From an uncultured Pelagibacteraceae bacterium (lineage in GTDB: Bacteria > Pseudomonadota > Alphaproteobacteria > Pelagibacterales > Pelagibacteraceae), in the NCBI GenBank assembly GCA_902608385.1, contig CACLNT010000003.1, positions 1 through 64,000 of the forward strand: a stretch of DNA of 64,000 nt. The letters are read 5' to 3'. The stretch's first letter is position 1, and each line of letters begins with the position of its first letter. The notes under the pieces are model-generated. The model was not told the origin of the DNA. It worked only from the letters and a program-made list of their open reading frames with translations, and searched no databases. The position numbers and the translations under genes are program-made. Below, piece after piece: positions 3,827-28,803 of the stretch.

Positions 3827-3876
3827 AATTTACTTGTAAATAACAAAGCCTAGATTCATAATCAAATTGATTCGTT

Positions 3877-25903: not shown

Positions 25904-27078
25904 AAAAAATTGCAATTATTGGGGCAGGGATATCAGGATTATTTATTGCGAATCTATTTAAAAAAAATCCAAATTATCAAGTATCAATCTATGAAAAAAA
26001 TAACTCAGTTAATCTTAAAGAGGGTTATGGAATTCAATTATCAGTCAACAGTATAAAACTTTTGAATGAAATTGGTTTTAATAAGCTAGATGAATTAGAA
26101 AAATTTAATCCTGAAAAAATTGATTTTTATTCAATTAATAACTCAAAAAAAATATGTGAATTAAATATTTCAGATTTTAACTCTGAAAACTGCAAGTATA
26201 CCACTTTAAAGAGATCTACTTTAATTAATTTTTTAAAAAAGGATTTGGAGGATCTAATAAAAACTGGCTATAATATTTTAAAGATAGATCAGCAAAACCA
26301 ACAAATCAAACTTTCTTTTGAGAATAATGAAGTTAAGGAATGTGATTATTTAATTATTTCTGATGGAGTTTTTTCAAAAAGCAAAAGTCTTATTTTAAAT
26401 AATCAAACCAAACCAAAATTAAACGGCACATTAGCAATTAGAGGAAGCATTATCCAGGGTCTTATATGGGACAAAAAAAATAATGGGCCCAGTATTATAA
26501 AGAGCATAGATGATGAAAATATTTCTATTTTTTTAGGTTCTAATTTTCATTCCGTGATTTATCCAGTGAATCCTCATGGAGATTTAAATTATATAGCCAT
26601 AATGAAATACAAATTGTCCCTTCAAGAAGAAAAAAATTATTCACTTTTTAATGACGAATCTTTTGCAAGAAAAGTATTAAGTAAAATTCCAATAAAGGAT
26701 GAAATTACTAGTAATTTACAAAATATTAAAATTTTTCCAGTATTTGTAAGTGATGATTTTTATCAACTACAAAATAATAATATACATTTAATTGGGGATG
26801 CTTTTTTTACGTTTCCTCCTTCGTTTGCTCAAGGTGCATCTCAATCAATAGAGGGTGCATATGAATTGTTTAAAAGTATTGAAAAAAATTCCGAAAGTAT
26901 TTTTTTTAAAAATAGGGTGAGAAAAACAAAGATGGTTAATAATAGATCAAAATTAAATCAATTTGCTTTCCATTTATCTAATCCTTTAACTATATTTTTT
27001 AGAAATATTTTTTTGAAAAGATTAGTAAAAAATAAAAAGTTTTTAGAAAATTATTTAGGCAAAGTTTATAAAAATTAA
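25900..27078 (+). CDS. FAD-dependent monooxygenase, substrate unknown
   Basis: Class A flavoprotein hydroxylase fold, 392 aa. Visible are the dinucleotide motif IGAGISGLFIANL (7-19), the DG motif DYLIISDGVFSKS near 148-160 and the GD motif HLIGDAFFTFPPSFAQGASQSIEGA near 299 onward. Relatives include salicylate hydroxylase and the ubiquinone hydroxylases UbiH/UbiF; the sequence does not decide between them. It is translationally coupled to mutY (ATGA overlap) and converges on ccrM with a 4-nt overlap. Confidence 0.85.
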   Translation: MKKIAIIGAGISGLFIANLFKKNPNYQVSIYEKNNSVNLKEGYGIQLSVNSIKLLNEIGFNKLDELEKFNPEKIDFYSINNSKKICELNISDFNSENCKYTTLKRSTLINFLKKDLEDLIKTGYNILKIDQQNQQIKLSFENNEVKECDYLIISDGVFSKSKSLILNNQTKPKLNGTLAIRGSIIQGLIWDKKNNGPSIIKSIDDENISIFLGSNFHSVIYPVNPHGDLNYIAIMKYKLSLQEEKNYSLFNDESFARKVLSKIPIKDEITSNLQNIKIFPVFVSDDFYQLQNNNIHLIGDAFFTFPPSFAQGASQSIEGAYELFKSIEKNSESIFFKNRVRKTKMVNNRSKLNQFAFHLSNPLTIFFRNIFLKRLVKNKKFLENYLGKVYKN

Positions 27079-28148
27079 CTATTAGAGATTAATCTTTGTC
27101 TCAAATGATCAATAGGTACTACCGCACCATCTAAATTATAATGCCAATAAGTCCACCCATTGCAACTTTCAGCACCTAGAATTGTTGCTGCCACTTTATG
27201 AATTGAGCCTTCTGTTTGTGCATGTTTAATACTGCCATCGGCCATAATTTTTGCTCTAACTTTCTTTTTATTATCAAAAATAGTGCTGCCAGGCTTTATT
27301 ATTCCTAATTCAACTAAAGAACCAAAAGGTATTCTTGGTTTTGATCTATTATTTTTTAATGTGTCTAAATAATCATCATCTATAGGTTTCGTATTTTTTA
27401 ATCTTTCTTCTGCTGCTTTAAAATAATTTTTTTCTTTTTCAATTCCGTAATAATTTCTTCCCAGTTTTTTTGCAACTGTAGCCGTTGTTCCAGATCCAAG
27501 AAAAGGATCCAAAATCATATCCCCTTTATTTGAAGAGGATAATAAAACTCTATGTAATAGGGACTCAGGTTTTTGCGTAGAATGAATTTTCTTACCATTC
27601 TTTTTTAATCTTTCAGCTCCGTTACAAATTGGCAAGCTCCAAGTAGATCTCATTTGCAAATCATCATTTAAACATTTTAAAGATTGATAATTAAATGTGT
27701 ATTTTGAATTTTTTTCTTTAGAAGCCCAAATTAATGTTTCATGAGCATTAGTAAATCTTGTTCCTCTGAAATTTGGCATTGGATTATTTTTGTTCCAAAT
27801 TACATCATTAAGTATCCAAAATCCTAAGTCTTGTATTTTAGCACCAACTCTAAAAATATTATGATAACTACCAATTACCCAAATACTACCATTTTTTTTT
27901 AATAATCTTTTGCATTCCAAAAGCCAATCATTAGTAAATTCATCATAAGTTTTAAAACTTTCAAATTGATCCCATTTGTCATTTACTGCTTTTACTTTGG
28001 ACCTATCAGGTCTGATTAATTTATTTCTTAGTTGCAAATTGTATGGAGGATCAGCAAAAATTAGATCAAAACTTTCATCAGGGATTTTTTTTAATTCCTT
28101 AAGACTGTCTCCGTTAATAATTTTATTTTTTAAAGTTGAACTAATCAT
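27075..28148 (-). CDS. ccrM: Cell-cycle DNA adenine methyltransferase CcrM (GANTC)
   Basis: Beta-class N6-adenine methyltransferase that in other alphaproteobacteria methylates GANTC after replication. The start at 28148 gives MISSTLKNKIINGDSL and 357 aa; an upstream in-frame TTG (28163) adds five residues but overlaps the -10 box. Catalytic DPPY lies in IFADPPYNLQL near 34, the SAM motif is LDPFLGSGTTATVAKK near 217-232. The C-terminal domain (about 270-350, ending in WTYWHYNLDGAVVPIDHLRQRL-like residues) is specific to CcrM. rnhB lies just upstream. Confidence 0.93.
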   Translation of the reverse strand: MISSTLKNKIINGDSLKELKKIPDESFDLIFADPPYNLQLRNKLIRPDRSKVKAVNDKWDQFESFKTYDEFTNDWLLECKRLLKKNGSIWVIGSYHNIFRVGAKIQDLGFWILNDVIWNKNNPMPNFRGTRFTNAHETLIWASKEKNSKYTFNYQSLKCLNDDLQMRSTWSLPICNGAERLKKNGKKIHSTQKPESLLHRVLLSSSNKGDMILDPFLGSGTTATVAKKLGRNYYGIEKEKNYFKAAEERLKNTKPIDDDYLDTLKNNRSKPRIPFGSLVELGIIKPGSTIFDNKKKVRAKIMADGSIKHAQTEGSIHKVAATILGAESCNGWTYWHYNLDGAVVPIDHLRQRLISNS

Positions 28149-28162
28149 TTTTATAAAAAACA

Positions 28163-28191
28163 ATTAGACTCCAGCTAAGAGTCTCCGTCAA
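28163..28191 (-). promoter_or_regulatory. Predicted ccrM promoter with internal GANTC sites
   Basis: On the minus strand, TTGACG (28186-28191), a 17-nt spacer and TCTAAT (28163-28168) give 5 of 6 matches at both boxes, with a start near 28156, 8 nt before the ccrM ATG. GANTC sites lie in the spacer (28179-28183) and across the -10 box (28167-28171), forming a 6-bp inverted repeat AGACTC/GAGTCT. Further sites are at 28211-28215 and 28239-28243. CcrM action here would change methylation of its own promoter. Confidence 0.6.
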
Positions 28192-28230
28192 CCTGCGATT
28201 GAATTAATTTGAGTCCAGTTGTGATCTAAT

Positions 28231-28803
28231 TTATTTTAGACTCAATATATTGTGTATTGGCTGAAATGTTTTTCTATGGTGCCTGGTTATCCCAAATTTT
28301 TTAATTGCTGATAAGTGGTCTTTAGTTCCATAGCCTGCATTTTTATTCCAAAAATATCTAATATATTTTTTTGACATTTTTGTAATTAAACGATCTCTTG
28401 AAACTTTAGCAATTATTGAAGCAGCAGATATCTCAGGTATTTTTTGATCTCCTTTAACCACATATTTTAAATTGTAATTTTTAATTTTTGGAATTTTATT
28501 TCCATCTATCAATATTTCCCCAGGTTTTTTTTTTAGTTTTACTATTGCTCTTTTCATTGCAAGTAGACTTGCATTTAAAATATTCATTTTTTCTATTTCT
28601 TTCAATGAAGCAGAACCAATAGACCAATAGGAATTTTTTTTTATATATTTTTCTAGTATTTCACGATTTTTTTTTGATAATTTTTTTGAGTCTTTTAGCT
28701 TCTTCTTATCTAATTTTTTTTTTAGTATAACTGCAGCAGCATAAACAGGTCCAATTAGACTTCCTCTGCCAACTTCATCCACGCCAGCTATAGTTTTTTT
28801 CAT
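28231..28803 (-). CDS. rnhB: Ribonuclease HII
   Basis: Removes single ribonucleotides and RNA primers from DNA. The 190-aa protein has the family motif AGVDEVGRGSLIGPV (catalytic Asp9 and Glu10), KDSKKLSKKNRE near 37-48 and the later acidic residues in the ILIDGNK segment near 96-102. It lies 4 nt after the uracil-DNA glycosylase gene and upstream of ccrM, an arrangement seen in other alphaproteobacteria. Confidence 0.95.
   Translation of the reverse strand: MKKTIAGVDEVGRGSLIGPVYAAAVILKKKLDKKKLKDSKKLSKKNREILEKYIKKNSYWSIGSASLKEIEKMNILNASLLAMKRAIVKLKKKPGEILIDGNKIPKIKNYNLKYVVKGDQKIPEISAASIIAKVSRDRLITKMSKKYIRYFWNKNAGYGTKDHLSAIKKFGITRHHRKTFQPIHNILSLK

Follow-up and report, generated by a model that had tools for sequence, protein, structure and literature searches.

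How is the synthesis of CcrM, the adenine methyltransferase acting on GANTC, timed outside Caulobacter, above all in lineages without CtrA? The GANTC sites of Caulobacter ccrM lie in its leader and are thought to share in the control of the gene. Caulobacter ccrM is activated by CtrA (PMC3667746). Pelagibacter is reported to be without ctrA (PMC2877005, PMC7987155), and GANTC is methylated in a Pelagibacter strain, at a lower level near ori (PMC9516812). The ccrM locus of an uncultured Pelagibacteraceae bacterium suggests a concrete, testable answer, in which the enzyme would read its own product on its own promoter.

The locus lies in a stretch of 64,000 nucleotides, hereafter the window. On the minus strand, ccrM occupies 27075..28148 and encodes 357 amino acids counted from its ATG. 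Its product matches the Pfam families N6_N4_Mtase (8.4e-67) and RAMA (1.2e-18) and, as a CcrM orthologue, is alike Caulobacter CcrMI over nearly its full length (structure 6pbd, E 5.6e-142, residues 9-352 of 357 covered). The gene upstream, rnhB for ribonuclease HII (28231..28803, also minus strand; Pfam RNase_HII 3.8e-42), is separated from ccrM by 82 nt. rnhB precedes ccrM in 50 of 50 named SAR11-type loci, one of which (L198) is titled only alpha proteobacterium and was assigned by likeness, and in 24 of 30 other named loci.

A sequence-only reading had placed a promoter, TTGACG-17 nt-TCTAAT, upstream of ccrM, with one GANTC site in the spacer and one on the -10 box. On the minus strand, the putative core promoter reads TTGACG-GAGACTCTTAGCTGGAG-TCTAAT, with the predicted -35 box at 28186..28191 (read 28191-28186) and, after a 17-nt spacer, the predicted -10 box at 28163..28168 (read 28168-28163), which has C at -11. 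It was missing from the output of a simple promoter scan, so the case for it rests on reading the sequence and on comparison; conservation bears it out, since all 122 unique SAR11 upstreams contain TTGAC and the -10 box can be followed in the column counts of an alignment of 79 SAR11 promoters that have a site at +20. If transcription begins about 7 nt past TCTAAT, the ccrM leader would measure about 8 nt. The listed TTG start of ccrM at 28163 falls on the -10 box and is therefore unlikely to be the true one.

Four GANTC sites, all GAGTC or GACTC, begin at 28167, 28179, 28211 and 28239, within 77 nt upstream of ccrM as first described. Offsets are given here from TTGAC. Site A (28179..28183, GACTC on the minus strand) lies in the spacer at +8, and site B (28167..28171, GAGTC on the minus strand) lies at +20 and overlaps the -10 box, its final two bases falling inside TCTAAT; the placement of both is confirmed by motif search and conservation. 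Site C (28211..28215, minus strand, -24) is supported by motif search and by conservation in its own genus, and site D (28239..28243, minus strand) is the one whose membership of the element is least certain. Only sites A to C are intergenic, since D is inside the 3' end of rnhB. No GANTC is present between the -10 box and the ATG of ccrM in the window; some other SAR11 genera have one near the ATG. The analogy drawn with Caulobacter thus holds for the presence of GANTC near ccrM but only weakly for geometry, the sites being in the leader there and in the core promoter here.

One way to account for such a group is chance, or common descent with no selection acting on the sites. The figure of about 0.06 chance sites given by the sequence-only reading is of the right order: in 455,473 bases of the genome (the window and 20 further stretches, G+C 28%), a first-order model of intergenic sequence gives 0.024 G/C-centred GANTC and 0.12 GANTC of any kind per 77 nt. 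Over the whole window, GANTC occurs 105 times, below the 151.5 expected from shuffles. The ccrM upstream holds the sole cluster of four sites in 100 nt across the 455 kb examined, and the four other clusters, of three sites in 100 nt, are all in coding sequence. A hand Poisson estimate from the measured densities predicts about 0.2 four-site clusters in 455 kb by chance, and a single cluster is by itself only mildly surprising. The weight of the case is in the position before ccrM and in conservation. The sites recur at ccrM in many families with turnover of their positions, and controls are near zero, which leaves chance or mere descent with a negligible probability.

Of the family's 197 genomes, 179 contain a ccrM match. 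Removal of identical sequences reduced 131 SAR11 upstreams to 122; the named and other sets may share species and the rows are related, so that the following counts are not independent. With site A sought at +6 to +11 and site B at +18 to +26 (+18 to +20 class-wide), site A is present in 100 of these upstreams, site B in 102 and both in 85. At least one core GANTC is carried by 117 of 122, including 35 of 35 unique upstreams of the own genus, and absence from close relatives, which the sequence-only reading had named as one finding that would speak against it, is not what is seen. The offsets vary by genus (+8/+20, +9/+20, +9/+25, +8/+19), site B being at +20 in many genera, at +25 in genus g4 and at +19 in the sister family. 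Site A occurs alone in genera g2, g5 and g10 and site B alone in g3, g7 and g8; neither is present in both g9 upstreams, in one of three g12 upstreams and in two named SAR11 upstreams. In three upstreams of the SAR11 g9 type (L082, L083, L199), TAGTCTATT replaces GAGTC at the -10 region, losing GANTC and retaining the -10 sequence.

The distance from A to B is 11 or 12 in 66 of 67 SAR11 instances with site B at +18 to +20, and 16 in g4 (offsets +9 and +25). Eight of the 11 own-genus genomes contain the pattern TTGACN4GANTCN6GANTC a single time, in all 8 adjoining ccrM, against 0 for its reversed control in the same 11; in the other three, the window genome among them, the gap between the sites is 7 nt. 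Site C recurs at -24, with 27 instances across the 35 unique upstreams of the own genus, and the upstream offset seen most often class-wide is -15 (18 instances). A counterpart of site D, TATTGAGTC, is present in 12 of 38 own-genus upstreams.

The centre base of site A in SAR11 takes all four values (A 44, T 30, C 21, G 4) with GA and TC kept, which argues for selection on a methylation site. At site B, with 83 instances at +19/+20 among 122, the centre base is G in 79 and A in 4; this near constancy, together with the retention of AGTCTATT in g9 despite the loss of the site, indicates that the -10 box shares the constraint. The palindrome control AGNCT failed in SAR11 (87 of 122), which is ascribed to AGTCT inside GAGTCT; its count in the wider class is 3 of 99.

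The inverted repeat AGACTC/GAGTCT to which the sequence-only reading drew attention is present, but it is a by-product of two palindromic sites with centre bases that are complementary by chance. Followed as it is by a T run, it could be taken for an intrinsic terminator of rnhB; a terminator scan lists it, and the window copy folds at -9.1 kcal/mol. However, of the 66 SAR11 promoters that carry both A (at +7 to +10) and B (at +19/+20), just 21 have complementary centre bases, and complementary arms before the T run are therefore not conserved. Moreover, the sites shift in other genera and occur in G+C-rich relatives, and it is TTGAC and the -10 spacing that hold. The terminator reading was accordingly rejected as highly improbable.

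The same geometry extends beyond SAR11. From 144 alphaproteobacterial genomes drawn evenly across the class, 99 ccrM upstreams were analysed (of 102 genomes with full-length-type ccrM, the window's aside, two were not fetched, and one of the 100 fetched, 34 nt at a contig end, was dropped). Site A or B, at +6 to +11 or +18 to +20, is present in 66 of the 99 and both on one TTGAC in 38; seven control palindromes of the same composition give 0-3 upstreams with either site and 0 with both. Site A occurs in 58 of 99, and the 47 instances of site B comprise 43 at +19 and 4 at +20. The distance from A to B is 9-12 nt, most commonly 11 (19 of 38), or about one helical turn. Neither site is found in 33 upstreams, 12 of them without any GANTC in 420 nt. 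Among the 30 of 80 named ccrM loci counted as non-SAR11, 29 have enough upstream sequence, and of these 18 carry site A or B, 12 both on one TTGAC and 11 neither; the records with both include Salipiger, Gemmobacter, Actibacterium, Vannielia, Pontibaca, Novosphingobium and Croceicoccus.

Aligned on TTGAC, all 42 upstreams with GANTC at +19 have A at position 24 and T at position 28, both positions being outside the GANTC by which the rows were chosen. Because these correspond to -11 and -7 at a 17-nt spacer, they define a -10 box CANNNT whose first base is the last base of GANTC. Class-wide, GANTC at +19 is fused to this weak predicted -10 box. In the Pelagibacter type, site B is shifted by one and the -10 box is TCTAAT, which puts C at -11. 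Across the alignment of the 79 SAR11 promoters with the +20 site, the T and A after the site and the T at -7 are constant; the C at -11 is fixed by construction in these rows, chosen for site B, and is not counted as evidence. An alternative -10 box, TAATTN with a 19-nt spacer, appears less likely because its last base varies. A -10 box without A at -11 should melt poorly, and the Pelagibacter-type sequence therefore suggests a dependence on help for opening.

By comparison across SAR11 and the class, the core sites are shown to be selected as GANTC, with their placement held relative to the predicted -35 and -10 boxes. We regard it as nearly certain that the core GANTC is a selected promoter element made of CcrM sites, and probable that the activity of the ccrM promoter depends on methylation. 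The interpretation offered by the sequence-only reading, a feedback switch through methylation of the core promoter, is to this extent supported in part.

Genome-wide searches tie the geometry to ccrM. TTGACN{3,4}GANTCN{5,7}GANTC occurs at 63 places in the 144 class genomes, compared with 11 for the reversed control, and 28 of the 63 (27 and the window's own) lie 30-146 nt upstream of a ccrM match. The window genome has a second such place at G000:C6:33077. In the same genomes, TTGAC-N14-GANTCANNNT occurs at 117 places, compared with 34 for its reversed control, at least 42 of the 117 being at ccrM; its other places exceed the control only about twofold, and the pattern is thus mainly a ccrM signature. 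GAGTCTAAT is over-represented in 11 genomes (152 versus 61 reversed), but was rejected as a broad promoter class or regulon since, of the 30 places fetched from those 152, 27 are coding and the 3 intergenic ones are all at ccrM.

Which protein would read these sites? The window genome encodes GcrA, a factor absent from the sequence-only reading (G000:C9:14729-15169, E 8.0e-39, with matches to 7ye1/5yiu and 5yix), and the protein has a DNA-binding as well as a sigma-binding region. By binding to region 2 of sigma, GcrA accelerates open complex formation at methylated promoters (PMC7403470). It covers ctrA P1 from -35 to -10 if the promoter is fully methylated, and less if it is hemimethylated on one strand (PMC3667746). 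In Caulobacter, promoters whose GANTC falls between the -35 and -10 boxes are switched on at a defined stage of the cell cycle (PMC4287350). On balance, GcrA seems a somewhat better candidate than not for the main reader of the core sites.

Alternatively, N6-methyladenine at site B, which adjoins or falls within the -10 box, may directly weaken or strengthen the binding or melting of the promoter by sigma-70 RNA polymerase, GcrA being unneeded. In all 42 upstreams with GANTC at +19, the spacing between that site and the -10 bases is constant, and 15 of the 19 ccrM genomes in which GcrA went undetected retain a core site, one single-contig genome among them having both. Active CcrM lowers the activity of an Agrobacterium promoter region containing six GANTC even in E. 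coli (PMC11514494), which indicates that a GcrA-free effect of methylation can exist. However, GcrA is widespread, with a match in 93 of 144 class genomes and in 54 of 61 in a second search, and it is a known reader of such sites. The 19 negatives, defined by a full-length-type ccrM and no GcrA over the Pfam cut-off, may hold diverged GcrA that escapes detection; a permissive repeat search in them gave nothing over the cut-off, the best hit being a partial match at 2.5e-4, and PMC7987155 names only two orders as being without GcrA. Core sites are carried by 51 of 80 GcrA-positive genomes as against 15 of 19 GcrA-negative ones (Fisher p 0.28), and co-occurrence was set aside as proof of GcrA as the reader because no association was found. 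Where sites occur without detected GcrA, either GcrA was missed or there is another reader, perhaps RNA polymerase itself. A direct switch of this kind is a minority possibility, to which we give about one chance in several.

The reading that we prefer, and consider reasonably probable, is a dedicated sigma-70 ccrM promoter that senses its own methylation, probably via GcrA, with peak activity when hemimethylated and with negative feedback. CcrM would set the methylation state of its own core promoter, and ccrM transcription would follow that state. GcrA on RNA polymerase would read both core sites, about one helical turn apart, and would assist the opening of this promoter, its -10 box being insufficient for efficient melting by itself. 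Passage of the replication fork would hemimethylate the promoter and raise its activity to the highest level, and re-methylation of both core sites by CcrM would then damp it. The outcome would be a replication-timed pulse of ccrM with negative feedback in a lineage reported to be without CtrA. The distance between ccrM and parB is about 211-229 kb in all seven own-genus genomes that form a single contig; should parB mark the origin, ccrM would be replicated and hemimethylated early in the cycle.

The sign of the feedback is judged by analogy. ctrA P1 is modelled as on when hemimethylated and silenced once fully methylated (PMC3667746), and the Agrobacterium gcrA promoter, in which GANTC is over-represented, has lower activity in the methylated state, in E. 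coli as well (PMC11514494). For these reasons we infer that negative net feedback is slightly favoured. The GcrA data would fit positive feedback too: methylation would let GcrA activate ccrM, CcrM would sustain its own synthesis, and hypomethylation would turn the promoter off. GcrA activates methylated promoters in Caulobacter (PMC7403470, PMC3667746), and the weak -10 box, whether the class-wide CANNNT or the Pelagibacter-type TCTAAT with its C at -11, agrees with such activation. However, self-sustaining activation gives no pulse, and the known GANTC promoters of cell-cycle regulators, ctrA P1 and that of Agrobacterium gcrA, suggest that full methylation reduces activity. Positive feedback is thus rather unlikely.

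The arrangement that we favour resembles the GcrA/CcrM sigma-70 promoters of Caulobacter mipZ and ctrA P1 in having promoter GANTC with GcrA and CcrM both encoded, and mipZ also has two juxtaposed GANTC (PMC3667746). It differs from them in that the controlled gene is the methyltransferase itself and in that a pair of sites spaced by about one helical turn, its second member joined to the -10 box, recurs across the class. The Agrobacterium gcrA promoter likewise belongs to a cell-cycle regulator gene, but a different one. In SAR11, no GANTC was found in the 130 nt upstream of gcrA in 9 of 9 cases (L031-L040; 1 of 10 starts was not found), and methylation control of gcrA there was rejected because the gene has no GANTC close to it.

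PMC7987155 predicts ccrM as a core GcrA target in many orders, on the basis of an extended GANTC motif within -200 to +100 (YGAKTCG/K in Caulobacterales), with GcrA control of ccrM seemingly lost in Caulobacterales and Parvularculales. In that study, the position of the site within the promoter is not considered and very few conserved Pelagibacter orthologues looked GcrA-regulated, whereas the present comparison defines the core geometry and finds it most strongly in SAR11. Among the papers searched, a partial set that left out some key ones, no description of a fixed core geometry or of its fusion to the -10 box was found. Hence ccrM as a predicted GcrA target is already known (PMC7987155), and the core geometry and -10 fusion are apparently new.

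The two-site core promoter is present in most of the SAR11 genomes examined, and roughly two thirds of the alphaproteobacteria sampled with ccrM have one core site or more, which suggests that the Caulobacter arrangement is the exception. Tentatively, TTGAC-N3/4-GANTC-N5/7-GANTC fused to the -10 box may be an ancestral alphaproteobacterial element, in which methylation of the site near the -10 box acts directly on RNA polymerase and GcrA assists without being essential; this would be the original CcrM loop, replaced by CtrA in Caulobacter. As a small, putatively methylation-gated promoter, it is amenable to tests in vitro and in E. coli carrying CcrM.

GANTC pairs are also seen near other genes. 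Two GANTC lie 16 nt apart at 3853-3873 of the window, in a divergent intergenic region with one gene leading off each side. On contig C2 of the same genome, two GANTC (L134:12005 and 12033) lie at most 50 nt upstream of the start of a clpX-like gene, named by its sequence start, which is a possible second candidate for a methylation-sensitive promoter.
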